Shown here piece by piece: positions 9,050-57,800 of a stretch of DNA of 64,000 nt (positions are counted from its first letter, which is position 1; every line of letters begins with the position of its first letter). A program made the translations under genes and the position numbers. This DNA is from Nitrospinaceae bacterium (lineage in GTDB: Bacteria; Nitrospinota; Nitrospinia; Nitrospinales; Nitrospinaceae), in contig JAJDBJ010000005.1 of assembly GCA_029261395.1 (NCBI GenBank), positions 124,001-188,000 of the forward strand, given 5' to 3'. The notes beneath the pieces are model-generated. The model saw only the letters and a program-made list of their open reading frames with translations. It was not told the DNA's origin and searched no databases.

Positions 9050-9080
9050 AAGGCAGTCACTCCACCACTTGGGATTATTT

Positions 9081-9650: not shown

Positions 9651-9657
9651 CTCATCA

Positions 9658-10503: not shown

Positions 10504-10548
10504 TATTTTCTTAATCCATACAGCCCGGGCCACATTGCCAACACCATG

Positions 10549-10581
10549 GCCTATGCCTCGCTAGTCACCCGGAAAGAATGG
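10549..10581 (+). pseudogene. Copied 3' tip of the methyltransferase gene
   Basis: These 33 bases align without gaps to the last coding bases of the methyltransferase (9615-9647). Translated, AYASLVTRKEW matches ASAALVARKES at 7 of 11 positions. The following dozen bases up to the ATG also match. It marks the left boundary of the tandem duplication that produced the second lipoprotein gene. Confidence 0.6.
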
Positions 10582-10591
10582 TCACTCATTG

Positions 10592-12172: not shown

Positions 12173-12192
12173 GATTTCCTCATAAGGTCATT

Positions 12193-12840: not shown

Positions 12841-12847
12841 ACGCGCC

Positions 12848-14175: not shown

Positions 14176-14370
14176 AAAGATATTCCTATACCGCTTGTCA
14201 ATGAGTGTGTGAAGGGCAGACTATAATGTTTCGATCCGGGATGCAAACGAATCTCCCTCCCCGGCCGTAACCTTCATTATTTGATTCCGAGCCAAGGCAA
14301 ATATGCTACAATTTCAGGAATATCACACGTCGCAACCTAGTGTGCGGCTTCCCCGGAAAGGGACTCTACT

Positions 14371-14832
14371 GTGAAAATCAAACCTGTCACCTGGATCCTT
14401 GCATTGGCATTAGGATGCTTCCTGAGCATCGGCAGTCCCGTTCAAGCTGAAGAGGATGTGCTTCTTAAAATGTGCAATGAGGGCAATTCGGTCGCCTGCT
14501 TTACTCGTGGAAAAAAATATGTCACCTTGGAAAAGGATACTAAGAGCGCCATTCCCCTTTTTCGTAAAAGTTGCGCGGCAAACCATATGACTGCCTGTTT
14601 GTGGGGCGGCAATTTGATTCAAAATACAGGGAAGCAATACAGCCCTCAGTGGAAAGAGGCCGCGGCAATGTTTAAAAAGGCCTGTGAAGCGGACGAGGAT
14701 GGAGGTTGTTTTAACCTCGGTTCCCTTTATTACAAGGAAGGCCGGGCCAGCAAAGCCAAGAGAATGTACAAAAAAGCCTGCGACATGGGAAACAAGCCCG
14801 GCTGTGACAACGTCAAATGGCTTTCAAAATAA
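14371..14832 (+). CDS. Secreted Sel1-like, cysteine-rich repeat protein
   Basis: A 153-residue exported protein. The N-terminal 26 residues are a signal peptide ending in VQA. The mature part holds three Sel1/TPR-like helical repeats with regularly spaced Cys residues (SVACFTRGKKY, MTACLWGGNLI, DGGCFNLGSLYY, KPGCDNVKW). Disulfide-linked repeats of this kind are known in Helicobacter cysteine-rich proteins. The start is a GTG with GGAAAGGGA upstream. It sits 24 bases before an LRR gene on the same strand, so the two may be co-transcribed. Confidence 0.85.
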   Translation: MKIKPVTWILALALGCFLSIGSPVQAEEDVLLKMCNEGNSVACFTRGKKYVTLEKDTKSAIPLFRKSCAANHMTACLWGGNLIQNTGKQYSPQWKEAAAMFKKACEADEDGGCFNLGSLYYKEGRASKAKRMYKKACDMGNKPGCDNVKWLSK

Positions 14833-14856
14833 TTATCAGGCATTAAGAAACTAACC

Positions 14857-29739: not shown

Positions 29740-30162
29740 TCAGAACGCTTTTTTCAATTCGTTGATCAATGCAACGTAAATATTGTGGCAGAAGTCACAG
29801 GCATCATTCTTCGGAGACTCCCAGCGGGAAGACCACTCAATGAGGCAGGTATCGTTTTCCGTAATCGAGATCAACCGGACAGTCCCGATATAATCTTTCA
29901 CGTCGTTCTTCGATACGGGCGCCGGGCCATCGTCGATTGAATACTTGAAAGATTTATCCACTTCGCTGAACGCCACCAGCGTTTCGTGGAAGGCGTCGTT
30001 TAAAATCCGGCCGGCACCAATCTGATCTCCCTGCCTGTCTCCCACTGCTTCACATTTTTCGACAATAGCGGCGCCCCAGGACAGGTCATGAAAGTTTTTG
30101 ATCTTGTTCCATACCTGATTCACAGGTGCGTTGATGACAGCGGTTTGATAAGTTTTTCCCAT
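29740..30162 (-). CDS. SRPBCC-fold (START-like) protein, 140 aa
   Basis: A small cytoplasmic protein of the polyketide-cyclase/START-like fold, with an N-terminal AVINAPVNQVWNKIKNFHDLSW strand-helix pair, central GAGRI...FHETLVAFSEVDKSFKYSI strands and a long C-terminal helix. Such proteins bind small hydrophobic ligands or act as cyclases. Its stop abuts the stop of the molybdoenzyme gene. Its neighbour upstream on the same strand is the beta-barrel gene 151 bases away. The ligand is unknown. Confidence 0.82.
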   Translation of the reverse strand: MGKTYQTAVINAPVNQVWNKIKNFHDLSWGAAIVEKCEAVGDRQGDQIGAGRILNDAFHETLVAFSEVDKSFKYSIDDGPAPVSKNDVKDYIGTVRLISITENDTCLIEWSSRWESPKNDACDFCHNIYVALINELKKAF

Positions 30163-30313: not shown

Positions 30314-31534
30314 TCAGAAATGGTATTGCAGAACCAATTGCACCAGGTCGTCGTCACGCAATGCGAACAGGAAGTCGGCCGGAGGTTGATCCAGAAACGT
30401 GCGGATCTCGAGTTCCAGAGTCCAGTCATCACCTAGGCGGCGGCTGGCCTCGAGAAATAGAAACCGGGCATCGGTATCAATATCCTGCACCCAACCGAAC
30501 AGCAACTCACTGCTGGCGGCATCATTCACTGCCAATCGCAGAGCGCCCGCCACATCGTTTTCGAATGGCGTCAAGGCGAAGTCCTTACGATCGTCAAACA
30601 AATATTCCGCTACCACCCCGAGGTCCATCCGGGACCCAAAAATTCCAGTGAAGGTGTATTCGAACCCTCCGGTGGCGGCGACATAATCGTTGCGCGTCAA
30701 CCCCCGCCGGTCCCCCTGGCCTTTTCGATACAGAGCTTCCAGTTTCCACAACCAGTTGCCCACCACATAGGACACGTCCAAACCCGTTTGCTGGATTTGC
30801 TGATACACAGGAAGAATGACGGGATTACCCGCACCGTCAGTTCCAGTCGTGAAAGAAGGATCACGGCTGGTGCCGATGAAATAATAGAGTCCAAAATCCC
30901 AATCACCCAAGGTGTGACTGTACCGGGCGGCCCAATCAGTGTGCCATTCTTCGGCGGAGCTTTCATATTGCGCCTGGTCGGTATCCACCACAAGCCCAAA
31001 ACGTAGGCGGCCCTTGTTTCCGGGAAACGTGCGCTCCCGAAAATAAGGCAGGACAAACAGGTCGAGCGTTCCCCAATCGCGAGCGAAGGAAAGGTTCGCC
31101 ATCGGCTGGCCCAGCATTTGTTCTTCGTCAAAATTTTCCACCAGATCGGTTAGGTTGATGATATCGACCAGATGCAGAACCTCGGTCACTCCCCAAAACA
31201 CCTTGCGCACGCCGAGGCGTAACTCAAAGTCGTCATGCAACCAGAGATAAGTGAGCTCGCGCACATCGAAATGGGTGCGCTCGGAGTCGGCACTGTCCAG
31301 ACGGAAAAACGGGACGAAGGTGAAACTGCTACCATTCTCGAGCTCGTGATAGTACTCCGGCTGAATGGCAAAGGAAGCCGACTGGTCCCGTTGTCCGAAA
31401 AAATTGGGACTCTCCGGATACAAACGGACTTCACCCTCCACATAACCGGACAATTCATTACCCAACGCGGCACGTTCCCCCATCAGAGCTAGAGGAACCG
31501 CCAACGCAAAGAATGTCACAAGAAACCTTTTCAT
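30314..31534 (-). CDS. Outer-membrane beta-barrel protein, DUF1302-like
   Basis: A 406-residue exported protein. A signal peptide of about 26 residues is followed by alternating amphipathic strands throughout (YVEGEVRLYP, FTFVPFFRLD, LRLGVRKVFWG, DLFVLPYFRE) and a C-terminal QLVLQYHF ending in Phe, the usual BAM recognition feature. It resembles DUF1302-type barrels. It is the last gene of the run RND pump, LolA-like protein, SDR, barrel, though 85 bases separate it from the SDR gene. DUF1302-type barrels often occur next to MMPL-type RND pumps in other bacteria, which supports a joint role in moving a hydrophobic compound across the envelope. Confidence 0.8.
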   Translation of the reverse strand: MKRFLVTFFALAVPLALMGERAALGNELSGYVEGEVRLYPESPNFFGQRDQSASFAIQPEYYHELENGSSFTFVPFFRLDSADSERTHFDVRELTYLWLHDDFELRLGVRKVFWGVTEVLHLVDIINLTDLVENFDEEQMLGQPMANLSFARDWGTLDLFVLPYFRERTFPGNKGRLRFGLVVDTDQAQYESSAEEWHTDWAARYSHTLGDWDFGLYYFIGTSRDPSFTTGTDGAGNPVILPVYQQIQQTGLDVSYVVGNWLWKLEALYRKGQGDRRGLTRNDYVAATGGFEYTFTGIFGSRMDLGVVAEYLFDDRKDFALTPFENDVAGALRLAVNDAASSELLFGWVQDIDTDARFLFLEASRRLGDDWTLELEIRTFLDQPPADFLFALRDDDLVQLVLQYHF

Positions 31535-31619
31535 AAGAGGGGATTGGTTGCTAACTGAACGGTCCTCGTTTTATATTTTGGAGTATTTTGCCACAATTTC
31601 TCACAGATTGTATGCAGTT

Positions 31620-32378
31620 TCAGGAGCTTGGCACTGGAAGAAAATTAGCCAGTTGCGCTTCCAGCGCTTTAGGGTCTGCAAAATAATCCTTACGGAACTG
31701 AACCGCCATCGGATCGATAAAGATATCTTCTTTGCCTTGTTCAATCGCACTCAAGGTTCCTTCGGCAATCAAATCGGGCGAGCTTTTTTCCATGTCAAAG
31801 TTTTTCGCCATATCAGTTTCTATCGGTCCGGGAAACACGCCGAACACCTGAGTGCCCTGCGCGGCCAATTCCGCCCGTATGCCCTGGGTCAATGAATGCA
31901 GAGCCGCTTTGGAAGCGGAGTAAGACCCCAGCACCGGAAAATTCACCAGGCTGGCGACTGTAAGCACATTGACCAGCGCCCCGCCTCCATTTTTTTTCAG
32001 CACAGGAGCAAACGCACGGGTGATCCTCAATGTCCCAAAATAGTTGACTTCCATTTCCTGCCGCGCGGAGTCGAGGTTATCAGCGGAGATCAACCCGGTG
32101 AAATTGGCGATACCGGCATTATTGATCAGCAAGGTGACGTCTCCCGCCTTCGTCAGCGCGGATCGAATATGCCCTTCATTCGTGATATCGATGGCGACCG
32201 GCTCCACTTTACCCCGGTGCTCTTGCGGCCACTCAGCGGCAATCGCGCTGAACGCCCCGGCATCGCGCATACCGGCATAAACTTTTTTCGCACCCTGGTT
32301 CAATAAAGCCGTGATATATGATTTCCCGATCCCTCGATTAGAACCGGTAACGAATGCAACAGAGTCTTTAATTTTCAT
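31620..32378 (-). CDS. Short-chain dehydrogenase/reductase
   Basis: A classical SDR oxidoreductase of about 252 residues. The cofactor motif TGSNRGIGKSY lies near residue 9, NNAG is present, and the catalytic triad is Ser (NVLTVASL region), Tyr and Lys in YSASKAALHSL. The start is the ATG giving MKIKDSVAFVTG, with AAAGGA 9 bases upstream; a longer in-frame start lacks a ribosome-binding site. It lies 58 bases after the LolA-like gene in the TetR-controlled run. Substrate is unknown; a lipid or steroid-like alcohol would fit the neighbourhood. Confidence 0.92.
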   Translation of the reverse strand: MKIKDSVAFVTGSNRGIGKSYITALLNQGAKKVYAGMRDAGAFSAIAAEWPQEHRGKVEPVAIDITNEGHIRSALTKAGDVTLLINNAGIANFTGLISADNLDSARQEMEVNYFGTLRITRAFAPVLKKNGGGALVNVLTVASLVNFPVLGSYSASKAALHSLTQGIRAELAAQGTQVFGVFPGPIETDMAKNFDMEKSSPDLIAEGTLSAIEQGKEDIFIDPMAVQFRKDYFADPKALEAQLANFLPVPSS

Positions 32379-32436
32379 GGCAGATATCCTTTCATTTTGA
32401 AATAAATTTATTTGATTTAACCGAGGAGGCACTCCA

Positions 32437-33231
32437 CTAACGGGCTCTCTTCAGACTGTTTTTGTTGAAATGCTTGTCCGTGAGCCCGGTTTGGAACGTG
32501 TAATTTTTCCAGCTCAGCTGGGTGCTCTTACCGGTTTGATGGTTGACCATATACATTTCATCCGGATACCAGTATTGATTCAAATATTTATGATATCCAT
32601 CGTACGTCAGGGTTTTGAGCAGGGAATCTTTGCGATCATAGAAGTCAACCTTAAGCACACGGTATTCGTCCTGATCGATCCAAACCACCCGGCGGGTATA
32701 ACCTGAATTTTCATACGCCGGGACCTGTTCTACCACAAAACTTTTATGGCCCTGGTATTCCTCATCGCGGAGCCATTTGTAAGTGTACTTTTTGACTTCC
32801 TGACTGGTGATGTCTTCGTAAGCAAATTCACTGCCCACAAACGGACCCGACTTGTTGGAGGAACTGATGCGCTTGACCCGTTTCAAGGCCGGCAGAAATA
32901 ACCACTGATCGTCGTTGTCCAGCGAGTGCGTAAAACTCAGAAAGGCGGTTTTTTTAATGTCACGCGGCTTGTCGAAAACCGTCAGGTTTTTATCGCCATC
33001 CCCTTGCACCTCGAGAGTTTTGAAACGAAGGTAACGGGTGCTTTCATCACCCTGACGGTTTTTCAGGATCATAATCGCATCCGCTTTATAATCCTTAAAA
33101 CCATTGTCGCGTTTGTCGTCCTCCACCGCGATTGCCAGCCCTTTTTCCTGAGGGGTCATGGCGGCCGCCGAAAACGGGATACCGGCTCCGACTAATATTA
33201 AACCCACTATTAAAACTTTTGTAATGTTCAT
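32437..33231 (-). CDS. LolA-like outer-membrane lipoprotein-sorting family protein, module 1
   Basis: A periplasmic protein of 264 residues with a signal peptide of about 23 residues and the LolA/LppX-like half-barrel fold expected of this family. Family-type blocks are NRQGDESTRYLRFKTLEV, DNDDQWLFLPALKRVKRIS and SGYTRRVVWIDQDEYRVLKVDFYD. The start has AAAGGAG 6 bases upstream. Such proteins are thought to shuttle lipids between an MMPL-type RND pump and the outer membrane. The RND gene is immediately upstream. A close paralogue lies at 36658-37443. Confidence 0.87.
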   Translation of the reverse strand: MNITKVLIVGLILVGAGIPFSAAAMTPQEKGLAIAVEDDKRDNGFKDYKADAIMILKNRQGDESTRYLRFKTLEVQGDGDKNLTVFDKPRDIKKTAFLSFTHSLDNDDQWLFLPALKRVKRISSSNKSGPFVGSEFAYEDITSQEVKKYTYKWLRDEEYQGHKSFVVEQVPAYENSGYTRRVVWIDQDEYRVLKVDFYDRKDSLLKTLTYDGYHKYLNQYWYPDEMYMVNHQTGKSTQLSWKNYTFQTGLTDKHFNKNSLKRAR

Positions 33232-33289
33232 GGTAGTCTCCTTTTTAGTTAATTTCATATTTATGAATAAGGTTTCATCCCGAATCCAG

Positions 33290-35632
33290 CTATTGTGCCG
33301 TCGACGGGACAGGTTTCATTTCATCTGAGACTTCAAGATCCTTCCCAAATTTTTCCTCGATTTTCATCAATAGCGGCGGCAGGAACAGAAAGTCCGCCAA
33401 CAAAGCGAAACCGATGGTCATGGCCGTCAGGTATCCCATGTGCGAATTGATGGTGAATCCGGAAGAAGCCAGCACCAGAAATCCGGTGACCAGGACAATG
33501 GAAGTCACCCACAACGCCATACCTACTGTGTGAAATGAATAGCGCACGGCCTCGGCGGGGGTTTTGCCCTGTTCGCGCCTAGCCAACAGGTATTTACTCA
33601 GGAAGTGAACGGTGTCGTCGACGATGACTCCGAGTGACAGGGCGATCACCACCGAAACAGCCATTCCTATTTCCTCAAACACCAGTGCCCATAAGCCAAA
33701 CGCCATGAACGCTGGCACCAGGTTCGGGATCAGACTGATGAGACCGAACTTGAAACTGCGCAGAGTCACCATCAGGATTCCCGAAATCAACACCAGTGCC
33801 AGAGCTGTCCCGACAAGCATGCTTTCGACATTTCTGAGAGCGATGTTGGAAAACATGATCAGGGGACTGGCTCCGTGCGTCTGCATTCCGGGCAAACCAT
33901 TCTCCTTGAGCCAAATCTGAGCTTTCTCCTCCAGCGCCAGAGCGGTTTTAGTGTTGATCTCTTTGAAGACCACCGTAAACCGGGTGGCCGATTTGCTGAC
34001 GTTGAGTTGATTATTCAAGTCCAAGCCATACGGCAAGCTCATTTCAAACAACAGGAGATACTGCGCCGCCAATTCCCGGTCTTTTGGAATCTCGTAATAC
34101 AGTTGATCATCACCGTGCATGTTTTTGTTCAGCCGTTTCATGACATCGGTCAGCGTGCCCACATACATGACGTTGGGTTGCTGTCGGTACCATGCTTTGA
34201 ATTCATCCAGTTTGGCGAGGTACTCCGGCTTACTGATGCCTTCAGCCTCTCCCGACTGCAACGAGTATTCAATGGACTCAAAACCGGTGAGGTTTTGGGT
34301 CACAAAGTCGGTGTCGGTGCGAAAGGTGTAACGGTGATCAAAATACTCTTCAAACAAATCGTTGATCTGGATACGCGGGATGAAAACCGTCAGCGCAACG
34401 ATCAAGGCCAGCATGCTCCAGTACAGGCGCTTGCGGTGGTGGATCACGAAATCTGCGACCCGATCCATGGTTCCATTTATTTTGAGTTCGCTGGTTTTTT
34501 TAGCCAGCGGCAGGACTGACATGAACGCCGGTAAAAAGAGGACGGAGTATGCGAAAGCCGCTAGTACCCCGACTGCCACCATGTTCCCCAAATCCCAGTA
34601 GGGCGGCGAATCGCTGAAATTCAAACTCAGGAAGCCGATCGCCGTAGTCACACTGGTGATGAGTACTGGCTTGAAGTTGACGCGCAGAGACTCGACAATG
34701 GCTTTATTTTTAGTTTTCCCATGACGCATCTCATGAAACAGGGTGATCAGAATATGAATACTGTCCGCCACGGCCATGGTGAGAATATAGACCGGGGCGT
34801 TGGCGGAAACCGGAGTGAGTAAAATCCCCCACCAGCCACCAATGCCCAATGCTGTTGCCGTGGCCATGCCGATCAACACCAATGTTGATATCGTGCCTGC
34901 CAATGAACGGAGAGCCACCCATATCCCAACTGCGATCAACAGAAACATAATCGGAATCAGCGTTTGCATGTCCTGCTGACCGGATTCCACAAACTGGTTG
35001 TTGATCATAGCGACGCCGGTGAGATACACCTTGAACTCAGGATGGTTCGAGCGGAAATCATCGGCCATGTTGCGTACGAAGGCCGCCACTTCCGGAACTT
35101 CGGTGATAGATTTTCCCGGCAGATTAATAGTGACGTTGATGCCGGTCACGTGTGCCGTGGGTGAAATGAGGCGATTGACCAGTAACGGCTCGGACAGTGC
35201 GACCTTTTTTTTCTGTTCCAGATAGCGGTCGGGCAGACTCATGGCATTCTTGACCAGATCTTCCACCACGAGACCGTCTCCATCCGCCCAGGAATGCTGA
35301 AAATTGGTCACCGATTCCACGCGAATGGAATAGGGAATCTGCCAGGACTGTTTCGTCAGCTCCTCAACTGCGGCCAGATTCTCACGCGTGAACACCTGGC
35401 CATCTTTCGGTGCTAGGGCGATCAGCACATTGTCATTTTTGGTGTAGGTGTTCTGTAGGGCGTCGAACGCCTGCATTTGCGGATTTTCCTTACTGAAAAA
35501 CACCCGGTAATCCGAGGAAAAATCCAGAAACCGGGCACCGCTTGCGGCCATCGCCACTAATAAAAACGTGCCCAGAATGATCCCCCAGCGGAAGCGGATC
35601 ACCCATTCTCCAAAACCGTATTTGCGTTCCAT
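33290..35632 (-). CDS. MMPL/RND-superfamily transporter, module 1
   Basis: A 780-residue inner-membrane pump with about 12 membrane helices in two halves (TM1 near 15-32, a large periplasmic loop to about 215, TM2-6 to about 395, then the same pattern repeated). Each half has the conserved helix-4 stretch (LTMAVADSIHILITLFHEM and SLGVIVDDTVHFLSKY). This layout matches lipid or hopanoid exporters of the HpnN/MmpL group rather than AcrB. A GGGGAC site precedes the ATG. It starts the operon after tetR; the operator-like palindrome at 35669 lies just upstream. Substrate unknown. Confidence 0.9.
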   Translation of the reverse strand: MERKYGFGEWVIRFRWGIILGTFLLVAMAASGARFLDFSSDYRVFFSKENPQMQAFDALQNTYTKNDNVLIALAPKDGQVFTRENLAAVEELTKQSWQIPYSIRVESVTNFQHSWADGDGLVVEDLVKNAMSLPDRYLEQKKKVALSEPLLVNRLISPTAHVTGINVTINLPGKSITEVPEVAAFVRNMADDFRSNHPEFKVYLTGVAMINNQFVESGQQDMQTLIPIMFLLIAVGIWVALRSLAGTISTLVLIGMATATALGIGGWWGILLTPVSANAPVYILTMAVADSIHILITLFHEMRHGKTKNKAIVESLRVNFKPVLITSVTTAIGFLSLNFSDSPPYWDLGNMVAVGVLAAFAYSVLFLPAFMSVLPLAKKTSELKINGTMDRVADFVIHHRKRLYWSMLALIVALTVFIPRIQINDLFEEYFDHRYTFRTDTDFVTQNLTGFESIEYSLQSGEAEGISKPEYLAKLDEFKAWYRQQPNVMYVGTLTDVMKRLNKNMHGDDQLYYEIPKDRELAAQYLLLFEMSLPYGLDLNNQLNVSKSATRFTVVFKEINTKTALALEEKAQIWLKENGLPGMQTHGASPLIMFSNIALRNVESMLVGTALALVLISGILMVTLRSFKFGLISLIPNLVPAFMAFGLWALVFEEIGMAVSVVIALSLGVIVDDTVHFLSKYLLARREQGKTPAEAVRYSFHTVGMALWVTSIVLVTGFLVLASSGFTINSHMGYLTAMTIGFALLADFLFLPPLLMKIEEKFGKDLEVSDEMKPVPSTAQ

Positions 35633-35668
35633 CTTGTCCCCTTTAAGAAACGATTTGCGTTTATTTTG

Positions 35669-35684
35669 TTAGTTAAATAACTAA
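35669..35684 (-). promoter_or_regulatory. Candidate TetR operator upstream of RND module 1
   Basis: A perfect palindrome, TTAGTTA-AA-TAACTAA, between tetR and the RND gene, 37 bases before the RND start codon. Its core AGTTAAATAACTAA matches a site at the tetR promoter in 13 of 14 positions. Confidence 0.65.
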
Positions 35685-35702
35685 TATTGATGCCAAAAAA
35701 AA

Positions 35703-36272
35703 TCACATTTCCTTGATCCACGTTTTCAGCCGCCCTATTTCCCGCTCCACAATTTTAGGATCTTTCAGGGCATTAGCGACCACACCGCATCCCTGAAGGG
35801 CGGCCGTTAACTGCAATCCATACTGATCTGCCTGCTTCTGCCTCATCTCCTCAAACTGTCGGGTGATCCATTTTAAAACCCAGTCCATCAATCCATCGGC
35901 CTCGCGGGCAACCGGGGGCCTTTCTTTATCCAATTCCTGGCACATACTCCCGATGGGACAGCCATATTTGGCAATTGAGTTTTTCATGCTTAACTGCAAA
36001 TCAAGGAGTTTGATCAGCCGCTGCCTGGGGTCCGGAATCTTATCCCATCGCCGGGCCTCCTCCTTAATATTTTCAGTTCGCTGTTCAATAACTGCAGCAA
36101 CCAGATCTTCCTTGGTTTTGAAATAATAATAAACATTTCCCAGCGGAACTCCGGAATCCTCGGCGATATCCGCAATTGAAGTATCTTTGAATCCTGCCTG
36201 ATGAAACAGCTTGGTGGCAGATTCAATCAATCGCTCTCTTTTGTCGCTGACGCGTCCCATACCAAAACCCAT
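35703..36272 (-). CDS. TetR-family transcriptional regulator
   Basis: A 189-residue dimeric repressor. The N-terminal helix-turn-helix reads RLIESATKLFHQAGFKDTSIADIAEDSGVPLGNVYYYFKTKEDL, a textbook TetR domain. The C-terminal ligand domain includes the GCPIGSMCQELD segment typical of TetR_C-type regulators of short-chain dehydrogenase or lipid genes. It lies 70 bases upstream of the RND pump on the same strand. Its own promoter overlaps a related palindrome, so autorepression is likely. An ATG four codons downstream is an alternative start. Confidence 0.92.
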   Translation of the reverse strand: MGFGMGRVSDKRERLIESATKLFHQAGFKDTSIADIAEDSGVPLGNVYYYFKTKEDLVAAVIEQRTENIKEEARRWDKIPDPRQRLIKLLDLQLSMKNSIAKYGCPIGSMCQELDKERPPVAREADGLMDWVLKWITRQFEEMRQKQADQYGLQLTAALQGCGVVANALKDPKIVEREIGRLKTWIKEM

Positions 36273-36274
36273 TA

Positions 36275-36323
36275 TTAAGTTAAATGACTAACTTAAAATA
36301 AACCCAAACAGCAAATCTGTCAA
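36275..36323 (-). promoter_or_regulatory. tetR promoter with overlapping operator
   Basis: TTGACA (complement of 36318-36323) and TATTTT (complement of 36295-36300) are exactly 17 bases apart. Directly downstream and touching the -10 is the inverted repeat TTAAGTTA-6-TAACTTAA (36275-36296). A bound TetR dimer would block RNA polymerase. Confidence 0.7.
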
Positions 36324-36474
36324 CCCGTAGAGTCGGTTATTTTTATATTTTTTTCTGAATTAAAATTAAACATTTAAAATCAATAGCTTAGATACATAAA
36401 TTGTTTTTGTTGATAGGACGATGAACCCTCTTCAGCCCCCTCACCCTGCCCTCTCCTTAAGGGGAGAGGGTTTA

Positions 36475-36657
36475 TTTGGGTCCAGCGGCACGCTACTCCG
36501 CTGGTTAATTAAACCCTGGATGGCGAAGGTAACTTTGGGAACGAGTGGATACGTCTTGGGCGAATTGGGTCAAGTAGCCAATTAAACCTCAGATGCGAAG
36601 ACAACTTTTTGAACGCACAATAACGCCCCAGCTAAATTGGGTCCAGCGGCACGCTGG
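36475..36657 (+). repeat. Degenerate tandem repeats with dispersed palindrome copies B-D
   Basis: The 397-base gap between tetR and module 2 holds three copies of a sequence beginning A(A/T)TTGGGTC(C/A)AG at about 36475, 36562 and 36636, spaced 87 and 74 bases. The intervening segments also align (AATTAAACC...GATG...CGAAG...AACTTT...GAACG). The last copy (36634-36657) is 23/24 identical to the repeat at 15550-15573 and ends exactly at the stop codon of the LolA-like gene. A CCCTCTCC/GGAGAGGG hairpin precedes the block at 36449-36470. Confidence 0.65.
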
Positions 36658-37443
36658 CTAGCGGGCGCGTTTGAGGCTGTTCTTGTTGAAGTCCCTTTTC
36701 TTGAATCCGACTTTGAACTTGTAGTCGGACCATTTCAGCAGAGTGCTTTTTCCGGTCTGGTGGTTTTGCATGAACATTTCATCCGGGTACCAGTATTTTC
36801 CCAGATACTGATGATACCCGCGGAAGGTCTGGGTTTTCAGCAGGGAGTTTTTGCGATCATAAAAATCGATCTTCAACTGGCGATATTCTTTTTTGTCCAG
36901 CCACAGCACCTGGCGGGTATACCCGGAATTCTTGTAAGCCGGGTAGCGTTCGAACACGAAGCACTCCAGACCGTCCAGAGTTTCGTCTCGTACCCATTTA
37001 TAAGTGTATTTTTCAACCTCCTGACTGGTCACGTCTTCATAAGCAAATTCACTGCCCATAAACGATCCTGACTTGTTGGCGGAGCTGATGCGTTTGACCC
37101 GTTTCAAAGCGGGAAGAAACAACCATTGGTCGTCCGTCCCGGTCTTATGGGTGAAATTAAGGAGCGCGGTGCCTTTAACATCGCGCGGCTTGTCGAACAC
37201 CACCAGGGATTTGTCACCATCGTCTTTCACTTCCAAATTCTTGGTACGGAGGTAGCGGGCGCTTTCCTCGCCGTGACGGTTTTTCAGGATCATCTGCATG
37301 TCCGCCTGATAGTCGACGAACCCATTGTCGCGCTTGTCATCTTCGACGGCAATGGCGAGCCCTTTTTCCTCAGGAGTCTCGGCCAAAACCGGAGCGGAAA
37401 ACCCAATCAGACTCAGTACCATCACCCCTAAAACACACCTCAT
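36658..37443 (-). CDS. LolA-like outer-membrane lipoprotein-sorting family protein, module 2
   Basis: A 261-residue periplasmic protein, clearly paralogous to module 1: EKGLAIAVEDDKRDNGF, DDQWLFLPALKRVKRISS and the final NKNSLKRAR are shared almost unchanged. A signal peptide of about 20 residues ends near VLAE. The start is the ATG with GAGGAG 7 bases upstream; the next upstream ATG overlaps that site. It follows the second RND pump gene by 40 bases. The second module has no SDR or barrel gene and no regulator of its own. Confidence 0.87.
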   Translation of the reverse strand: MRCVLGVMVLSLIGFSAPVLAETPEEKGLAIAVEDDKRDNGFVDYQADMQMILKNRHGEESARYLRTKNLEVKDDGDKSLVVFDKPRDVKGTALLNFTHKTGTDDQWLFLPALKRVKRISSANKSGSFMGSEFAYEDVTSQEVEKYTYKWVRDETLDGLECFVFERYPAYKNSGYTRQVLWLDKKEYRQLKIDFYDRKNSLLKTQTFRGYHQYLGKYWYPDEMFMQNHQTGKSTLLKWSDYKFKVGFKKRDFNKNSLKRAR

Positions 37444-37483
37444 ATCGTTACTCCTCATTCATGTAAAAGATTTTGAATCATTT

Positions 37484-39820
37484 TCAGGCCGTTCCCGCGT
37501 CTTCTGCCGATTCGAAGGCGCTTTCTTGTGCGTATTTTTTTTCTTCCAGTTTCATGAGCAAGGGAGGAAGAAATAAAAAGTCCGCGACCAGAGCGCATAC
37601 CACCGAAATGGTGGTCATGATACCCATGTGAGTGTTCATCTTGAAACCCGAAAATGCCAGCACGGAAAAACCGACCACCAAAATGAGCGACGTCACCCAC
37701 AACGCGGTACCGACGGTGTGAAACGAATAGCGCACGGCCTCGGCGGGACTCTTGCCCTGCTCGCGGCGGGCACGCAAATATTTGCTCATGAAATGCACCG
37801 TGTCATCGACAATGATACCCAATGCCACCGGAGCCACAATGGATACGGCCAACCCAACCTCCTGAACAAAGAGCCCCCAAATACCGAAGGTCATGAATAT
37901 CGGCGCCAGGTTGGGGATCATGCTCACCAGGCCAAATTTAAAACTGCGCAGGGCGATGATCAGAACCATCGATATCAGGAACAAGGCCAGCAATACGCCC
38001 ACCGTCATACTCTTTACATTGCGCTTGGCGATGTTGGAAAACATGATCATGGGGCTGGCGCCGTGCGACACCATGCTGGGCAATCCGTTTTCTTTCAACC
38101 AGGCCTGTGCCTTATCCTCCAACTCCAAAGCGTAGCGTGTGGAGACACTCTCCAATATCGCGGTGAAGCGGGTCGACGATTTGTCCACGTTGATCTGGTT
38201 GTTCAAGTCCAGCCCGAAAGGCAGGGACAGTTCATACAATAAAAGATACTGGGCCGACAGATCACGCTGATCTGGAAGTTTGTAATAGGATTCGTCATCG
38301 CCGTGCATATTTTTGTTCAACCGTTTTATAACGTCGGTTAACGTGCCCACGTACATCACGCCGGGTTGTTGCCGATACCATTGAGCAAACTCCTCCACTT
38401 TGGCCAGGTACTCCGGATTGCTGATGCCGCCGGACTCTCCCGCGCCCAGCGAGTACTCGATGGCTTCAAACCCGGTCAGGTTGTCGATCACGAAATCGTT
38501 ATCGAGACGAAACTGATAGCGCGTGTCGAAATATTCGTTGAACTTCTCGTTGATTTCCACACGCGGTACCTGAGCGATGATCAACACGATGACCGTCAGC
38601 ATGCCCCAGTAAAGTCCTTTACGGTGCCGTATCACGAAGTCCGCAAACCGATCCATCACCAGCGTCTTGTCTTCGGGATGCGGCTTGATCCTGAGAGGCA
38701 GAACCGCCATCATGGCCGGTAAAAACAACACCGAATAAACGTAGGCCACCAACACCCCCATCGCAACGAGGTTGCCGAGATCCTGGAATGGAGGCGAGTC
38801 GCTGAAGTTAAGGCTGAGAAAACCGATGGCGGTGGTGATACTGGTAATGAACACTGGCTGATGGTTGATGCGTAACGATTCGATGAGTGCTTCACGTTTC
38901 GGTTTCCCCAACCGCATCTCATGAAACAGGGTCACCAGAATGTGAATGCTGTCGGCTATCGCCAACGTGAGGATGACGGTGGGTGCGGCGGCCGATACCG
39001 GAGTGAGCAAAATACCGAGCCATCCCCCCAGACCCATCGCCGTCAGGCTGGAAAAGGCGACCACCAGGACAACGGTAAGCGTTCCCCAGAAGGAACGCAG
39101 AACGATCACCATGACCCCGACGATCAGGAGATACATGATGGGCATCAGGGTTTTCAAGTCACCCTGGCTCGACTCCGTAAAAGAGTTGTTCATGAACACG
39201 ATACCGGTGAGACGGAAATCGATATCGGGGTATTTGAGGCGAAGCTTCTCCACCATGGGGCGAACGAAGCCAACCACTTCCGGCACTTCCTCAATAGATT
39301 TTTCCGGCATGTTGACGGTGACGTTCACGGCGGTCACGCTGGCATCCGGGTTGATCAACCGGTTGAGCAGAAGCGGTTCCTTCAGCGCAATACCTTTCAC
39401 CCGGTCCAGATCCGCGTCGGAAAATTGTTCCGCGCCTTCCACCAGGTCCTCTACGATCAGGTCGTCACCATCGGCCCAGGTGTGTTGAAAGTTAGTGACC
39501 GAGTCCACCCGGATGGAATAGGGAATCTGCCACGCCTCTTTGGTGAGCTCCTCCACCGCCGCCAGGGTTTCACGGGTGAACACCTTGCCGTTTTTAGGAG
39601 CGAGGGCGATCATCGCGTTGTCGTTCTTGATGTATTTATTCTGCAGGGCGTCGAAGGCTTGTAGCTGGGGATTTTCCTCGCTGAAGAACACGCGGTAATT
39701 ATTGGAAAACTGCAGGAACCGCCCGCCGCTTGCAGCAGCCACGACCATCAAGAGGGTCGCTACAATGATCCACCAGCGGTATCGTATGATCCCTTCCCCT
39801 AAACCTGTGTCCGTTTTCAT
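37484..39820 (-). CDS. MMPL/RND-superfamily transporter, module 2
   Basis: A paralogue of module 1 with the same 12-helix plan, 778 residues from the chosen ATG (GGAG 5 bases upstream; the frame extends 15 codons further without a site). Long identical stretches include the FDALQNKYIKNDN region, MYVGTLTDVIKRLNKNMHGDD and SPAEAVRYSFHTVG. Helix-4-type motifs LAIADSIHILVTLFHEM and LGIIVDDTVHFMSKY are conserved. The extreme C-terminus differs. A degenerate half-site TTAGTTGAAT at about 39884 lies upstream and could be a weak TetR site. Confidence 0.9.
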   Translation of the reverse strand: MKTDTGLGEGIIRYRWWIIVATLLMVVAAASGGRFLQFSNNYRVFFSEENPQLQAFDALQNKYIKNDNAMIALAPKNGKVFTRETLAAVEELTKEAWQIPYSIRVDSVTNFQHTWADGDDLIVEDLVEGAEQFSDADLDRVKGIALKEPLLLNRLINPDASVTAVNVTVNMPEKSIEEVPEVVGFVRPMVEKLRLKYPDIDFRLTGIVFMNNSFTESSQGDLKTLMPIMYLLIVGVMVIVLRSFWGTLTVVLVVAFSSLTAMGLGGWLGILLTPVSAAAPTVILTLAIADSIHILVTLFHEMRLGKPKREALIESLRINHQPVFITSITTAIGFLSLNFSDSPPFQDLGNLVAMGVLVAYVYSVLFLPAMMAVLPLRIKPHPEDKTLVMDRFADFVIRHRKGLYWGMLTVIVLIIAQVPRVEINEKFNEYFDTRYQFRLDNDFVIDNLTGFEAIEYSLGAGESGGISNPEYLAKVEEFAQWYRQQPGVMYVGTLTDVIKRLNKNMHGDDESYYKLPDQRDLSAQYLLLYELSLPFGLDLNNQINVDKSSTRFTAILESVSTRYALELEDKAQAWLKENGLPSMVSHGASPMIMFSNIAKRNVKSMTVGVLLALFLISMVLIIALRSFKFGLVSMIPNLAPIFMTFGIWGLFVQEVGLAVSIVAPVALGIIVDDTVHFMSKYLRARREQGKSPAEAVRYSFHTVGTALWVTSLILVVGFSVLAFSGFKMNTHMGIMTTISVVCALVADFLFLPPLLMKLEEKKYAQESAFESAEDAGTA

Positions 39821-39992
39821 GCACGCTCCATTTATAGACTCCGAACTTTTTCGTGGTTTTGACACCGGATCGTGCTTATCAGGTTAGTTGAATACGCCCA
39901 GCAAATCAAAAATGTTTTCGCAAAATGAAACGGCCGCCCTCCTTTTTAGGTAGAAGAGCGGTTACGCTTCTTGTTAAGAATTTTTCATTCCT

Positions 39993-40457
39993 TCAATCTT
40001 TATGGCATTCATTGTCGGACTCGAAACACACGCCGTCCGGCTTTCTGCCTTCTGCAATACTCTTGAGTAATGGCAGGGCGTGTTCCTTCCAACCCTGACC
40101 AAAGGAGTCGGCGCTCGGTTTCAGTCGGATATTGGTGTGCCGCAGAGTCAGGTGTGTGGATTTGCCCTGCGACTTCAAAACGATTTCCACCGTGGAATCT
40201 CCTGGCTCCAGATCTTCAATGCCGCCCCAGGTGAACACTACTTTTTTGTTCGGTACAATCTCGACGTACTCTCCCCGGCAGTGATTGCCATTTGGGTTAC
40301 TCTCACCGACATGAAACACGCCGCCGGGTTTGGGATCGGCTTCCACCACTTCGCCGAACCATTGCTTCATCTTGGCTTTCTCGGTCAGAAATCCAAAAAC
40401 TGTCTCTGCGGAGGCATCAATGGTGATCTCGCGGGTTAATTCATAAGTTTCGCTCAT
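39993..40457 (-). CDS. SRPBCC (AHSA1-type) protein paired with ArsR
   Basis: A 154-residue cytoplasmic protein of the AHSA1/SRPBCC family: ITIDASAETVFGFLTEKAKMKQWFG, PGGVFHV, KKVVFTWG and the terminal helix DSFGQGWKEHALPLLKSI. It overlaps the ArsR gene by 4 bases. ArsR-SRPBCC gene pairs are widespread; the SRPBCC member is presumed to bind a small hydrophobic ligand. There are three Cys residues, two near the end, but no clear metal site. Confidence 0.88.
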   Translation of the reverse strand: MSETYELTREITIDASAETVFGFLTEKAKMKQWFGEVVEADPKPGGVFHVGESNPNGNHCRGEYVEIVPNKKVVFTWGGIEDLEPGDSTVEIVLKSQGKSTHLTLRHTNIRLKPSADSFGQGWKEHALPLLKSIAEGRKPDGVCFESDNECHKD

Positions 40458-42581: not shown

Positions 42582-43127
42582 TTATTTCTGTGGAGTTTTA
42601 TTCAGTAAGGACAGGTCGAAACCATTCACCTTGAGCTTTGTGCTGAGTTGTTCATACAGCGATGCATCCATTGTTGGTGTCCGGCTTAAAATCCATAAGT
42701 ACTGGCGCTTGGGTTCACTCACAACGGCATATTGATAATTCTCATCCAAATCAATAATCCAATAGTCTCCATAAAATGGCCAAAAGAAGGTGACTTCTAA
42801 CTTGGCATTCGATTGATTATCGACAAAATAAGCAGTACCAACCGCTTCCTTCAATTCCCCATCCAATCCGCCTTCGTAGCACCGATTGGTCACCCGAATC
42901 GATCCATCGTCCTGCAACTCATATTTGGCTGTTACGGCGTAGCAGTTTTCTTCAAAACTATGTGGATAACGGGCTATCTCATACCATTTCCCAAGGTATT
43001 TCTGCTTATCAACATTAGCCACAACTGCCAGCGGAGGATCTAATTGCGTCGGAACATTTGAACAGGATGCCAGCCCTAACCCAGCGAAAAGAATCACAAT
43101 CAAAATATTTATAATTTTAGATTTCAT
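42582..43127 (-). CDS. blc: Bacterial lipocalin (Blc-like lipoprotein)
   Basis: An outer-membrane lipoprotein of 181 residues that binds lipids or fatty acids in a beta-barrel. The signal ends in LASC (Cys22). The lipocalin signature GKWYEIARYPHSFE near residue 47 is followed by the other family blocks: DGSIRVTNRC, the WPFYGDYWIIDLD strand and YLWILSRTP. Length is typical of E. coli Blc. It is flanked by 126-bp direct repeats, which suggests that it arrived as a unit or was caught in a local rearrangement. Confidence 0.93.
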   Translation of the reverse strand: MKSKIINILIVILFAGLGLASCSNVPTQLDPPLAVVANVDKQKYLGKWYEIARYPHSFEENCYAVTAKYELQDDGSIRVTNRCYEGGLDGELKEAVGTAYFVDNQSNAKLEVTFFWPFYGDYWIIDLDENYQYAVVSEPKRQYLWILSRTPTMDASLYEQLSTKLKVNGFDLSLLNKTPQK

Positions 43128-47648: not shown

Positions 47649-50600
47649 ATGTTCAGCAACTTTTTTATCGAACGCCCCCGGTTTGCTTTCGTCATATCCA
47701 TTGTCATTGTGATTGCCGGGCTGGTTTCTCTTCCTCAATTACCTATTTCTCTCTATCCTCAGATCGCCCCACCGCAGGTCAAGATCACCGCCTCCTATCC
47801 GGGCGCCAGTGCCGCCGTGCTGGAAAGCACGGTTGCGGTTCCCATTGAAGCGCAGGTCAACGGCGTGGAGGATATGATTTACATGTCCTCCAAAAGCACC
47901 GACAGCGGAACCTATTCTCTCGACATTACGTTTGAGATTGGAACCGACCCCGATATGGCGGCGGTCAACGTACAGAACCGCCTCTCCCTGGCCACTCCCA
48001 CCTTACCGGAGGAAGTCAACCGATCGGGCGTTTCTGTAAAAAAACAATCCCCTGATTTCCTGCAGATCATCGCTTTCTCCTCCCCCAATGGAACTTACGA
48101 TCAGTTGTTTCTGAGCAATTTTATTTCCATCAACATCAAGGATGTGCTGTCACGCGTTCCCGGCGTCAGTGATGTCATTATATTCGGGGCTTTGGATTAC
48201 TCGATCCGGATATGGCTGGACCCGGATCAAATGGTGAACTTGGGGATCACCACCAATGATGTGGTTGCTGCCATCCGCGACCAGAATTTACAGGCTGCCG
48301 CAGGGCAAGTGGGGCAGGCACCCTCTACCCCAGACCAACAATTCCAGTACACCATCCAGGCCAAGGGGCGATTATCAGATCCATCCGAATTCGAAAATAT
48401 CATAATCCTGGCTCAACCGGATGGGTCGGTGGTGAGAATGAACGACATCGCCCGCGTGGAGCTCAGCTCACAGACATTTGAAACATTTTCACGACTCAAC
48501 CAATCGCCTACTGTCAATTTTGCAATTTACCAGCTCCCGGACGCGAATGCTCTGGAGGTCGCCCAAGGCATCAAAGAAACCATGGAGCGCTTGTCCAAAA
48601 ACTTTCCGGAGGATGTCAAATACATCATTCCCTACGATGCCACAAAATTCATCGATAGCTCGTTGAAAGAGCTTGTGGAGACTCTATTCATCGCGTTAGG
48701 GCTGGTTATTCTGGTGGTGTACATCTTTATTCAGGACTGGCGTGCCACGTTGGTCCCGGCTTTAGCCATTCCCGTGTCCTTGATCGGAACGTTTGCTCTG
48801 TTGCTGGCTATGGGCTATTCCATCAATAGCCTGACTCTGTTCGCTCTGGTATTGTCGATCGGCATCGTGGTGGATGATGCGATTGTTGTGGTTGAAAATG
48901 TTCAGCGCCACCTCCAGGAAGGATTGGAACCGAAAGAAGCGACACGACAAGCAATGAGCGAAGTGTTCGGTCCCATCATTGCCACTACCCTCGTGTTGCT
49001 GGCGGTTTTCGTTCCCATCGCCTTCATGGCAGGCATTACCGGTCAACTCTACCGGCAGTTTTCGGTCACCATTGCGATTGCGGTCTCACTTTCATCCCTC
49101 AATGCCCTGACCCTGAGTCCGGCGCTGTGTTCCATTTTGTTGCGCAACCGGCAAACCCGGCCCTGGTTTGCCCTGCGCTGGTTTGAGGCCCTGTTCAAAC
49201 TTATTTCCCGAGTCTATCTGTTCTTCGTAAAAATAATCGTGAGACGGTTTGCTTTTACAGTTTTTATATTCATGCTCATTGCAGGATCGACCTACTGGAT
49301 CTTTAAAATCTCACCCACCGGTTTTATTCCGCAGGAAGATCAGGGAGTTCTTTTTGTCGATATCCAGCTTCCGGATGGTGCCTCCCTGAATCGAACCGAC
49401 GAGGTGGTCAAACAGATGGAAGATATTATGAAAAATCTTCCGGGAGTTGAAAACACGGTTGCTCTGATTGGCAATGGGTTGATCAGCGGAACCAAACCGA
49501 ACTCCGGAACCGTTATCAGCGTCCTCAAACCCTGGGAAGAGCGTCCGACTGAAGAATTGTCCAGCGCCGGTCTTCTCCGTCGTGTATGGGCCATGACCAG
49601 CCAGGTCCCGGGAGCAAGGGCCATTGCTTTTACTCCTCCTCCGATTCGCAGCCTCGGCAACGCCAGTGGGTTTGAACTGCAACTTCAGGATATGCGGGGA
49701 GGAGAACCTCAGGAGCTCTCTTCGGCGATGCGGGGTTTTGTGTTTGAAGCCAATCAGATTCCGGAACTCCAAAATGTTTTCAGCACCTTCACCGCAGAAG
49801 TTCCCCAGATATCCCTTGAAATAGATCGCTTGCAGGCCAAGGCTTTGGGAATTCCCGTGGCTGATATTTTTGCCAGCTTGCAAGCGCAGTTGGGATCCCT
49901 TTATGTCAACGACTTCAACAAATTCGGACGAGTGTACCGGGTCATGGTCCAGGCGGAGTCCAACTATCGCAATAGTCCCGATGATATCGGCCGCATCTAT
50001 GTGAGGAGCGCCGATGGCATCATGGTGCCTCTGCGGACTCTCACGAACACGTCTTCCATATTAGGTCCCGAATCCTTGACACGCTACAACATGTACCGGG
50101 CGGCCAAGGTCAATGGCAGTCCCGGTCCGGGTCTCAGTACGGGCCAGGCAATCGCGGCGGTGGAAAAGCTGGCCGCGCGTGTCCTCCCGGAAGGCATGGG
50201 ATTCGAGTGGTCCGGGATGTCTTATCAGGAGATCAAAGCGGGCGAACAGGGGCCCATCATTTTCGCACTGGCCTTGTGTTTTGTTTATCTGTTTCTGGTG
50301 GCGCAGTATGAGAGCTGGTCGATTCCCTGGGGAGTTATTCTCTCGGTTCCGGTCGCTTTGGGCGGAGCTTTATTGGCGATGCGGGGAACCGGGCACATAT
50401 TGGACATCTATGCACAAATCGGATTGATCATGCTGGTCGGCATGGCTTCCAAAAACGCCATTCTGATTATCGAGTTCGCTAAAGTTCAAAGAGAGGAAGG
50501 ATTATCTATTTTCGAAGCGGCGGTCAAGGCCGCACGCCTGAGGTTTCGGGCAGTGATGATGACCGCGATTTCGTTCGTCCTGGGTGTCATGCCTCTGGTC

Positions 50601-50774
50601 ATTGCCACCGGCGCAGGTGCCAACAGCCGGCAGTCGTTGGGAACGATTGTTTTCGGGGGAATGCTTGCTTCGGCCATCATCGGCACGTTACTGGTTCCTT
50701 CTTTTTATACCCTGGTTCAAGCCACCACTGAAAAACTGCAAAGAAAAAAAGAACCTCAAAAAACTGAGGCATAG
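47649..50774 (+). CDS. RND multidrug efflux pump (AcrB/HAE1 family)
   Basis: A 1041-residue inner-membrane proton/drug antiporter. It has the standard start [20 protein letters not shown], twelve membrane helices and two large porter loops. The proton-relay aspartates are present as Asp409-Asp410 in [14 protein letters not shown]. The porter motifs [16 protein letters not shown] and [14 protein letters not shown] are typical. It starts 3 bases after the adaptor stop. With the first two genes it forms a complete tripartite pump. Substrates cannot be predicted. Confidence 0.97.
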
Positions 50775-54895: not shown

Positions 54896-57800
54896 TTACG
54901 CCGAGGTTCCCGCTCCAGACGCAGAACCAAAATCGTCCCGGTCGAGGGATTCTTTCACAAGATCTTCTTTGCGGGTGTGCAGGCCGAGGTCGGTCATCAA
55001 TGAAATTAAAACGGGAACGAGAAACAAGGTAAAGATGGTGGAGAACATCAACCCGCCGATCAGCGCCGTGCCCATGCCGCGATACAACTCAGTCCCGGCT
55101 CCTTCACCAAAAGCGAGGGGAAGCATGCCGCACACTGATGAAATGACGGTCATCATGATGGGCCGCAGACGGGTTTCGCAGGATTTTAGCAGGGCTTCGC
55201 GTTCGTCCATGCCGGAACGAATATTATTCAGCATCTGATGCACGATCAGAATCGCGTTGTTCACCACGATGCCCGCCAGAATGATGATTCCCAACTGCGT
55301 TAAAATGTCGAACGTGATCCAGTCCCAGCCTTTGAGCATCGCTTCCGGATGAGGCACCTTCATGTCTTCAAGGATGCCCCTGATATTCATTCGTTGCAGA
55401 ACATTGTTCCCCGCAATACCGAAGAAAGAACCCGAGACCGCCAGGGCTACGGTCAACATGACAATGAAAGGCCGCATGAACGATTTGAACAACGCCACGA
55501 GCAATAAATAAATAAAACCGATCGCGTAGAAAAAACTATTCAGCAGAGACTTTTCAGTCGATGCCAGATCATCAGCGGTCCCGCCAATGCGCAATCCATA
55601 TTCCTCCGATAGATTTCTCCTTTCAGGAGCAAGGTACTCCTTTTCCACGCGCTGGATTACTTTCTGCATGGGGTAAGACTTGTGCACCTGGACCAGCAGT
55701 TTGACGGAGCGTTCTTTTTCGATATGATCGATGCGTGCCGGACCCGATGCGATTTCAATATCCGCCAGGTAACCCATGTTAGTCATCATTTTCTCATCGG
55801 TCCAGACAGGGAGATTCTTATAATCATTGAGGCCCAGTTTTTCCACATCCTCCCGCACCAGAACGAAATCGATCGGTTCGCCCTGATCATTGAATTCGCC
55901 CAGGTATTTACCGGCATTCAGAGATTCGATGATATCGCCGATCTCCGGCACTCCCATTTTAAGGCGCGCAGTGTTCAATCGCTTTGGAATAAAACGCAAC
56001 TCCGGGTTGCCCAGTTTAAATTCGGGACGAACGGAATGCACACCTTCACTTCCAGTAATATTTTTGATTAAGTCCATGGCGATTCGCTTCAGCTCAAAAA
56101 TATCCGGCCCGACGATTTCAATATCAAACGTTTTGGATGCGGATCGAAAGATGGGACGTTGGGACGCAAACGCGAACCGGTATCCAGGTATCTGAAAAAT
56201 GCGCCTCCCCATTTCATTGGATTTTACCGCCATTTTCACTTCGCCGCGCTGGCCCCGAGCCAATTCGGGTTTGACGATCGCCCCGCCGCCATTGAACCGG
56301 TTGGAAAACACCAGGAAATTATTGTTCACATCTTCCATCTGGGTGATCTCTTTTTCGTACTCAGCAAAGTATTGCATGTTCTGTTCTGCCGGTACCCCCG
56401 CCACCGGGTCCATGAACATGAACACCATATTGCTGTTGCCCGTGGGCAGGTAATCCCGTTCCGGAAGGATCAAAGTACTCCACACCAGCAATCCTGCGAT
56501 GCCGAGTATCACCCCAACCTTCACGACCATATGGCCGGCACCTGTCCCCAACACAAATTTCATGGTCCGCGAATAACCGGCGGCCAGCGCCCCCCCAAAA
56601 ACGACCAGAGGTTTCAAGGGTCCGCTATGCAGGAAACCCGCATCGTAGGTCTCGCCCGGACGCAGGCGGATCAGCAAAGTGGCCAACGTTGGGATCACCG
56701 TAACGGAAACGATCAGGGATAAGGCGATGCTGGCACTAATGGTGATGGCGATATCCTGAAACAACTGTCCGGCTTCCTCCTGGATAAACACGATCGGCAG
56801 AAATACGGCGAGCGTGGTCAAGGTTGACGACAGCACCGCGCCCCATACCTCCACCGTGCCATCGTAGGCGGCCTTGAACACGCCCTTCTTCAGCGTGAGG
56901 TGCCGGTAGATATTCTCCAACACGACAATCGAGTTATCCACCACCATGCCGACGGCAAACGCCATCCCGGCAAGTGAAATAATATTGATGCTTCGCCCGA
57001 GTAATTTGAGAACAATGAAAACCGCCACCAAGCTAACGGGTATGCTGATCGCGATGATCAACACCGACCGAACAGACCCTAAAAATAACAGAAGGACAAT
57101 AACCGCCAGTGCCGCACCCAGAGCCAGATTCGATTTAACCAGAGACATGGCCTCATCAATATAATCCACATCCTTGTAGACGATTTTCAACTGCATCGGA
57201 ATACCGCGGTTAAGGAGTTCGCGGTTTAATTTTTCGATCGCTTCAGCCGCCAGGTTACAGGTGCTGACCACGTTGGCGCCCTGCTCACGGATAATGCCGA
57301 ACGCGTTGGAGATTCGTCCGTTGATCCGCACCAGCGACGAGGTCCGTTGGTAACCGTCGACCACTTTGGCGAAATCGCGCACGCGAATGGTTTTATCGCC
57401 ATCGCGCTTGATAACCGTTTGTAAAATGTCATCAGGATCCTTGAACTCCCCCAAGGTACGCACGGTATACTCGCGGTCGGCTTCATCATGAAACCCGGCG
57501 CGGGTGTTCTGGTTTTCGCTGGAAAGTTTCTGAATCACTTCCTTGTAGGTGATGTGCAGTCGGGCCAGGCTGTAAGGATCGAACTCGACCCGCATCTCCC
57601 GGTCCTCCCCTCCAAAATGCCAAACCTCCGAAACCCCTTCGACGCGTTGCAGAAGCGGGACGATCAAATCCTCCCCCGCTTTGTACATGTAGTTTTGGCT
57701 GATGTCCTGCATCTTCGGGTTGGGCTTCTCCACGATCACCCACATGATGGGATTCGAGTTGTCGGTGGAGATGGATTTCAGGACGGGCTTGTCCGCAAGC

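Follow-up and report, generated by a model that had tools for sequence, protein, structure and literature searches.

Two ancient pump-carrier modules and one porin-like barrel in a Nitrospinaceae genome as candidate export lines for lipid-like cargo

By what route lipids and other hydrophobes get across the periplasm where no continuous channel exists is still not settled, and the question is raised again by a locus in a 64,000-nucleotide stretch of DNA from a Nitrospinaceae bacterium (contig JAJDBJ010000005.1, positions 124,001 to 188,000; called the window here). The locus (30314-39820, minus strand throughout) encodes, in the order of transcription given by the open reading frame (ORF) listing of the window, MMPL1, LolA1, a TetR regulator, MMPL2, LolA2, a short-chain dehydrogenase/reductase (SDR) and an outer-membrane beta-barrel. 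A preliminary description had proposed that pump, periplasmic carrier and barrel form a line for the export or import of lipids. Do the two pump-carrier copies belong to such lines, and in which direction would cargo move? Taken as a whole, the locus is best explained, in our view with fair though not strong probability, as a pair of related lines, driven by protons, that would export a lipid-like cargo (hydrophobic, of acyl or polyketide type).

Each module pairs an RND pump, probably of the HAE3 type, with a periplasmic LolA-like protein of family PF17131. MMPL1 lies at 37484-39820 (Pfam MMPL, 4.1e-38) and has 778 amino acids (aa) from a conserved ATG; start codons were re-read by alignment of the window with three genomes of the same genus, and the ATG at 39820 is conserved in all four, within an ORF (37484-39865) that extends to a GTG at 39865. 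Its partner LolA1 is encoded at 36658-37458 (PF17131, 6.7e-65; PDB entry 3bk5, E of 2.3e-92). In the second module, MMPL2 occupies 33290-35632 (780 aa; Pfam MMPL, 1.3e-35) and LolA2 32437-33258 (PF17131, 7.9e-64). The pumps share 66% identity over 761 residues and the carriers 67% over 263, in agreement with the preliminary description, which took both pairs to be paralogous and arranged in the same order and on the same strand at these positions.

The two LolA-like proteins score 215 and 219 bits against PF17131 (gathering cut-off, 30) and 43.2 and 36.2 bits against DUF1329 (gathering cut-off, 23.1), so that PF17131 is by far the better match. Neither matches PF03548, the canonical LolA family, at an E of 0.01 or below, and the single PF03548 match of the genome sits on contig C84, away from the locus. 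The predicted model of LolA2 (predicted local distance difference test score [pLDDT], 89.9) aligns with 3bk5 from Vibrio parahaemolyticus at a TM-score of 0.96 by target length and 60% identity. Next in structural similarity are 4z48, Porphyromonas gingivalis LolA3 (9tp6; PMC13103446) and NE2245, with canonical LolA and LolB far lower.

For the pumps, the best NCBIfam match is TIGR00921 (HAE3) at 167 and 171 bits, below the curated cut-off of 351.9, and the Pfam MMPL match is far above its cut-off. Transmembrane helices 4 and 10 of RND pumps have a role in the proton path. In these helices, H308 and H691 are present in all 92 pumps compared, D687 in 91 and D305 in 75 (N in 13), which is consistent with a proton path without proving one.

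Evidence for a common function comes from gene neighborhoods. The best 80 of 582 LolA relatives were examined as named loci (L numbers; genomes have G numbers, that of the window being G000); they span many phyla and are biased toward near relatives, seven (L080-L086) are duplicates of Nitrospinota genomes, and two have no LolA ORF in the ORF calls. MMPL stands directly before LolA in 71 of the 80 and the barrel directly after it in 65, with both in place in 60. A same-strand gene within 300 bp before MMPL is present in 49 loci, and in 40 of these it encodes TetR; the usual unit across phyla, and the ancestral one, is therefore TetR-MMPL-LolA-barrel. Within Nitrospinota, 26 loci have a LolA at least 65% identical (L044-L062, L071, L072 and L075-L079; the LolA frame of L056, missed in ORF calling, was found by search), and the barrel is contiguous in 22. 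The four exceptions are L046, which meets a contig end, L047 and L053, in which the barrel lies elsewhere, and L052, with a partial barrel match only. Among 77 genomes searched, PF17131 was found in 67 and the barrel in 38, and the named loci closest to the cassette of the window belong to metagenome-assembled genomes (MAGs) of Nitrospinaceae. Given the counts for the named loci, for TetR upstream and for contiguity in Nitrospinota, the concern that relatives might lack a conserved neighborhood falls away, and the proposal of a single trans-envelope line of pump, carrier and barrel is well supported.

Two kinds of partner accompany PF17131 proteins, an RND pump with a barrel or an ABC/FtsX transporter, and the genome holds both. 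A third RND-LolA cassette (L063, G000:C9:14500-34000, at 7364-13687) encodes an 867-aa MMPL, a 268-aa PF17131 protein, a true DUF1302 barrel of 423 aa and a 504-aa protein without a Pfam family. On C20 (L066, G000:C20:84000-101428, at 8604-14847), an ABC transporter and two FtsX permeases accompany a PF17131 LolA-like protein, a 377-aa protein without a Pfam match and a glycosyltransferase, an arrangement that largely recurs in other Nitrospinota (L220, L221 and L223). L070 had been considered a LolA-barrel pair with ABC permeases; its two upstream genes proved to encode LuxR-type regulators, and the ABC/FtsX-linked PF17131 protein is the one on C20. In several cassettes of Nitrospinota (L048, 7054-8385; L055, 11612-12928; L060, 3408-4739), the barrel is followed by a protein of some 440 aa that looks secreted and has no Pfam family. 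In G031 the barrel gene looks split, with most of it behind LolA (C1:556365-557234) and its C-terminal portion roughly 620 kb distant (1176442-1176729), through rearrangement or an assembly error.

Are the two modules a recent tandem duplication? Forcing the two pump copies of the genus together costs 75 log units and is rejected by the approximately unbiased (AU) test (P = 2.1e-6); the clade tested was set by the wording of the preliminary description, and an initial tree preceded the test. The pump tree pairs the genus's MMPL2 with the first pump of G013, a member of a different family in the order (SH-aLRT, 99 and 98), and places MMPL1 with the other, single-copy pumps of Nitrospinota. This tree omits L080-L086 and hits shorter than 650 aa or scoring below 300 bits, and the AU-test tree also omits the long branch L069. 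The carrier tree, built from the Nitrospinota rows and 11 chosen outside loci, likewise pairs LolA2 with G013 (81/80) and places LolA1 with G008 and G011, of the same family, and G017 (96/94). Pump and carrier trees thus agree on two ancient pump-carrier pairs. Both modules are under purifying selection, with dN/dS of 0.04 to 0.11 for pumps, carriers, SDR and barrel and up to 0.21 for TetR. On the simplest reading of these sequences, TetR-MMPL2-LolA2-SDR ended up between LolA1 and an old barrel; module 2 could stem from an ancient duplication with losses or from transfer. Cassettes seem to move whole, as all three trees (MMPL, LolA and barrel) place a Shewanella MAG (L106) with rows of the Desulfobacterota type.

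To which module, then, does the barrel belong? The gene (30314-31534; 406 aa) is kept after LolA in relatives. Its predicted model (pLDDT, 93.7) has about 18 long strands by manual count and would form a porin-like channel. The best VIA-align Z scores, 23.4 to OccD3 of the OprD/Occ porins and 22.6 to AlgE, come with 7 to 13% identity and speak for the fold only, not for a family; a comparison with 1,000 chains returned generic porin matches only, and a profile search of PDB sequences gave no match at an E of 10 or below. The barrel matches no Pfam family at an E of 0.01 or below, PF06980 (DUF1302) included, and its hhalign match to the genome's own DUF1302 barrel is weak (E of 6.5e-4, probability 28%). 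The porin-like fold is predicted with confidence. The preliminary label "DUF1302-like", based on a weak profile match and the operon position, should be softened.

In a barrel tree calculated without four long rows (L069, L188, L120 and L128), the barrel of the genus clusters with those of G008, G011, G016 and G018 and not with that of G013 (93/94). Descent from the lineage of module 2 is mildly disfavored (AU test, P = 0.039, for an alternative chosen after an earlier tree had been seen). The preliminary description had linked TetR, SDR and barrel to one copy only. For TetR and SDR, which belong to module 2, this stands; the barrel, despite adjoining copy 2, groups by sequence with the lineage of copy 1, so that it cannot be assigned to copy 2 alone. 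Probably it is common to both modules.

The SDR gene (31620-32378) is confirmed by Pfam (adh_short, 8.9e-40), by NCBIfam NF006118 above its cut-off and by the motifs TG(x)3GxG and YxxxK. Within cassettes it is restricted to this genus (G000, G001 and G005, the last with an additional alcohol dehydrogenase). It is no fixed cassette part, being absent from other Nitrospinota cassettes and from the interval between LolA and barrel in the named loci. With the SDR so limited, the suggestion that it modifies the cargo has nothing but co-location behind it.

The TetR gene (35703-36272; TetR_N, 1.5e-13), whose label Pfam likewise confirms, most likely starts at 36260, where an ATG is conserved in the four aligned genomes. 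Upstream, a promoter scan found a sigma70-type promoter for the module 2 operon, TTGACA-17-TATTTT (36295-36323, minus strand), also conserved in the four genomes; conservation is the evidence for it, as promoter-like sites in the region are no more numerous than in shuffles. A putative operator, O1 (TTAGTCATTTAACTTA; 36276-36291, minus strand), lies between the -10 element and the TetR start, mostly within 23 consecutive invariant columns, and a second, O2 (TTAGTTATTTAACTAA; 35669-35684, minus strand), between TetR and MMPL2, overlapping 17 such columns. O1 and O2 have 13 of 14 core bases in common, and the sequence flanking them and the promoter has drifted. Perfect matches to the joint motif number 2, 2, 2 and 1 in G000, G001, G005 and G006, all at these sites (the second site of the fourth genome has one mismatch), a fit that is partly by construction, the motif having been written from the alignment of these genomes. 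With up to two mismatches, there are 7, 4, 7 and 3 matches, against 22, 44, 19 and 12 for a reversed control.

Control of both modules by one TetR was rejected, as a scan of the four genomes found the motif neither upstream of MMPL1 nor elsewhere. Module 1, without O1 or O2 sites, sits behind AHSA1 and ArsR genes, which are also there in G001 and G005. Since the perfect matches are confined to its two sites, module 2 is most simply a self-controlled TetR operon, and we infer from the sites themselves that TetR may bind O1 and O2. A possible parallel for export under TetR control is reported from Staphylococcus aureus, where the TetR-type FarR is linked with an RND pump and resistance to an antimicrobial fatty acid (PMC10019231). 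That a single barrel is used by two pump-carrier pairs under separate control and of distinct ancient ancestry, a standing MMPL1-LolA1 and a TetR-switched MMPL2-LolA2 inside the cassette of the first, is a tentative idea that we consider possible rather than probable.

The genes and how they pair, the distinct descent of the two modules, the gene for the regulator with conserved sites beside it and the predicted folds were all computed directly; from them we infer a hand-over chain, an export direction and a sharing of the barrel. Each MMPL pump would draw cargo from the inner membrane and pass it to its own LolA-fold carrier, which would take it across the periplasm, and the cargo of one line, or of both, would leave through the outer membrane by way of the single 18-strand barrel. 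Module 1 may represent the ancestral line of the phylum and module 2 an ancient second line, lying between module 1 and the barrel and turned on when TetR releases its two local operators.

Lipid or hydrophobe cargo is suggested by analogy with AmeABCD of Castellaniella defragrans and with mycobacterial MmpL proteins, by a G013 cluster (L060, 5037-10426) in which MlaA, a phospholipid-handling lipoprotein, lies within such a cassette (pump-LolA-MlaA-pump-barrel), and by a polyketide synthase (PKS) gene before a distant cassette. The latter is found on Sulfitobacter plasmids (three records matched, two inspected), where the gene for a reducing type I PKS (KS-AT-DH-ER-KR-ACP) stops 57 bp short of MMPL, and LolA, galE and a barrel come next. 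With the PKS gene first and the transport chain after it, this order favors, in Sulfitobacter, the export of an acyl compound or polyketide made by the cell itself. In one such plasmid (L232, NZ_CP085169.1, 12155-25841), condensation-domain and Mur-ligase-like genes stand upstream of PKS-MMPL-LolA-galE-barrel, and the product is likely an exported glycolipid or polyketide. Of the two directions that the preliminary description had allowed, export is more likely than import; the barrel fold, as modeled, indicates neither.

A number of observations weigh against two lipid export lines. In G008 and G011, of the same family, the barrel does not adjoin the pump, and the proton path is not certain because D305 is not universal. 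The barrel is as similar to uptake porins as to the exporter AlgE. The Sulfitobacter cassette is distant from that of the window (LolA 39% and barrel 30% identical), and the open-licence PMC papers searched yielded no study of exactly this cassette and no biochemical or genetic data on it. Most loci lack a biosynthetic gene next to them, and no biosynthetic neighbor recurs, as no Pfam family occurs more than twice among 27 downstream neighbors, and no substrate could be deduced from conserved neighbors, there being no constant family beside the cassettes.

This inconstancy would also suit efflux of toxic exogenous hydrophobes (solvents, terpenes or free fatty acids), with TetR sensing the compound and inducing the pump line, as proposed for AmeABCD, the deletion of which is reported to reduce monoterpene tolerance (PMC6394551). 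The predominance of TetR among the immediate upstream genes (40 of 49) and the purely local regulon fit an inducible detoxifier as well, but the PKS linked to the distant cassette, MlaA within the G013 cluster and the lack of such an operator in module 1 do not, and we regard this explanation as rather unlikely. RND pumps of known direction are exporters. This, together with the PKS-first gene order in Sulfitobacter, makes it distinctly unlikely that the barrel imports long-chain alkanes, esters or outer-membrane lipid, which LolA would carry inward in a cycle driven by the pump. Such uptake would accord with the resemblance of the barrel to OprD/Occ porins, with the reported increase of an MMPL and LolA protein and its adjoining porin in Thalassolituus oleivorans on a C28 alkane (PMC6304351) and with the reported requirement for DUF1302, DUF1329 and MMPL genes of Pseudomonas putida on Tween 20 (PMC10866462). 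A role in lipoprotein sorting or outer-membrane protein assembly, as implied by the shared LolA/LolB fold and the automatic name "outer membrane lipoprotein-sorting protein" used in annotation, is very improbable, because the genome has its canonical PF03548 LolA elsewhere, and the PF17131 partners here are RND pumps and not LolCDE, though the paralogue on C20 is ABC/FtsX linked.

Elsewhere in the window, START-like genes stand on either side of the region (29740-30162 and 39993-40457, Pfam Polyketide_cyc2 and AHSA1), and a putative lipocalin-like protein is encoded at 42582-43127; in another family, a protein 53% identical to it is found within a few kb of the cassette (L048 and L080). Two more long RND-type genes have MMPL-profile matches at 48657-50729 and 54977-57136 (ORFs 47649-50774 and 54896-58159).

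The cassette is compact and widespread in marine and sediment bacteria, and its carrier has a homologue of solved structure, 3bk5, whose description has not advanced beyond "putative". In a culturable marine bacterium with a single copy, the path from pump through carrier to barrel could be tested directly; Neptuniibacter, Pontibacterium and Colwellia are examples of culturable marine relatives that have such a cassette. The TetR and its pair of operators open a way toward the cargo. If one barrel does serve two pump-carrier pairs, a cell could switch which lipid leaves through the same exit, and the arrangement would parallel the MmpL lipid exporters of mycobacteria in a modular, Gram-negative form.

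HpnN, BstA and mycobacterial MmpL proteins are lipid exporters of the MMPL-type RND kind, to which the pumps described here also belong; these pumps score far below the HpnN and BstA model cut-offs (99 and 116 bits against 751.85 for the hopanoid transporter model TIGR03480; 34 and 45 against 1400 for the sterol transporter model NF045600), and to our knowledge no LolA-barrel pair defines any of these systems. The "Nanopod" cluster of the benzene degrader ORM2a similarly unites an MMPL pump, a DUF1329 protein and a porin-like protein, but is described with YCF48-related and stress proteins and a link to benzene (PMC13101534). TOL_3187/TOL_3188 of T. oleivorans, compared by description only, combine MMPL and LolA-like domains with a neighboring porin without a conserved domain; there, pump and LolA-like domain are reported in one protein, raised on the C28 alkane (PMC6304351).

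In P. putida, PP_0765/PP_0766 and PP_2018/PP_2019 are a proposed transport system for growth on Tween 20, based on co-fitness and co-folding, in which barrel, periplasmic carrier and pump are likewise taken as one system (PMC10866462); unlike here, the genes are numbered in two separate places and belong to the DUF1302/DUF1329 families. AmeABCD comprises a HAE3 RND pump, a DUF1329 LolA-fold protein, a photosystem-stability-factor-like COG4447 protein and a DUF1302 barrel, for which proton-driven hydrophobe export was proposed from mutant data (PMC6394551). Both cassettes bring together an RND pump (here with HAE3 as its best, sub-threshold subfamily), a LolA-superfamily periplasmic protein and an outer-membrane barrel; the one described here differs in its PF17131 carrier with a weaker DUF1329 match, its barrel without a PF06980 match and the usual TetR regulator. 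Between its parts the window has no ORF for an AmeC-type second periplasmic protein, and TetR and SDR stand there instead. In the open-licence PMC papers searched, we found no description of the PF17131/TetR form whose barrel is unclassified, of its occurrence in many phyla or of the nested second module; the kind itself is already known from a handful of analogues, the closest being AmeABCD and PP_0765/0766/2018/2019.

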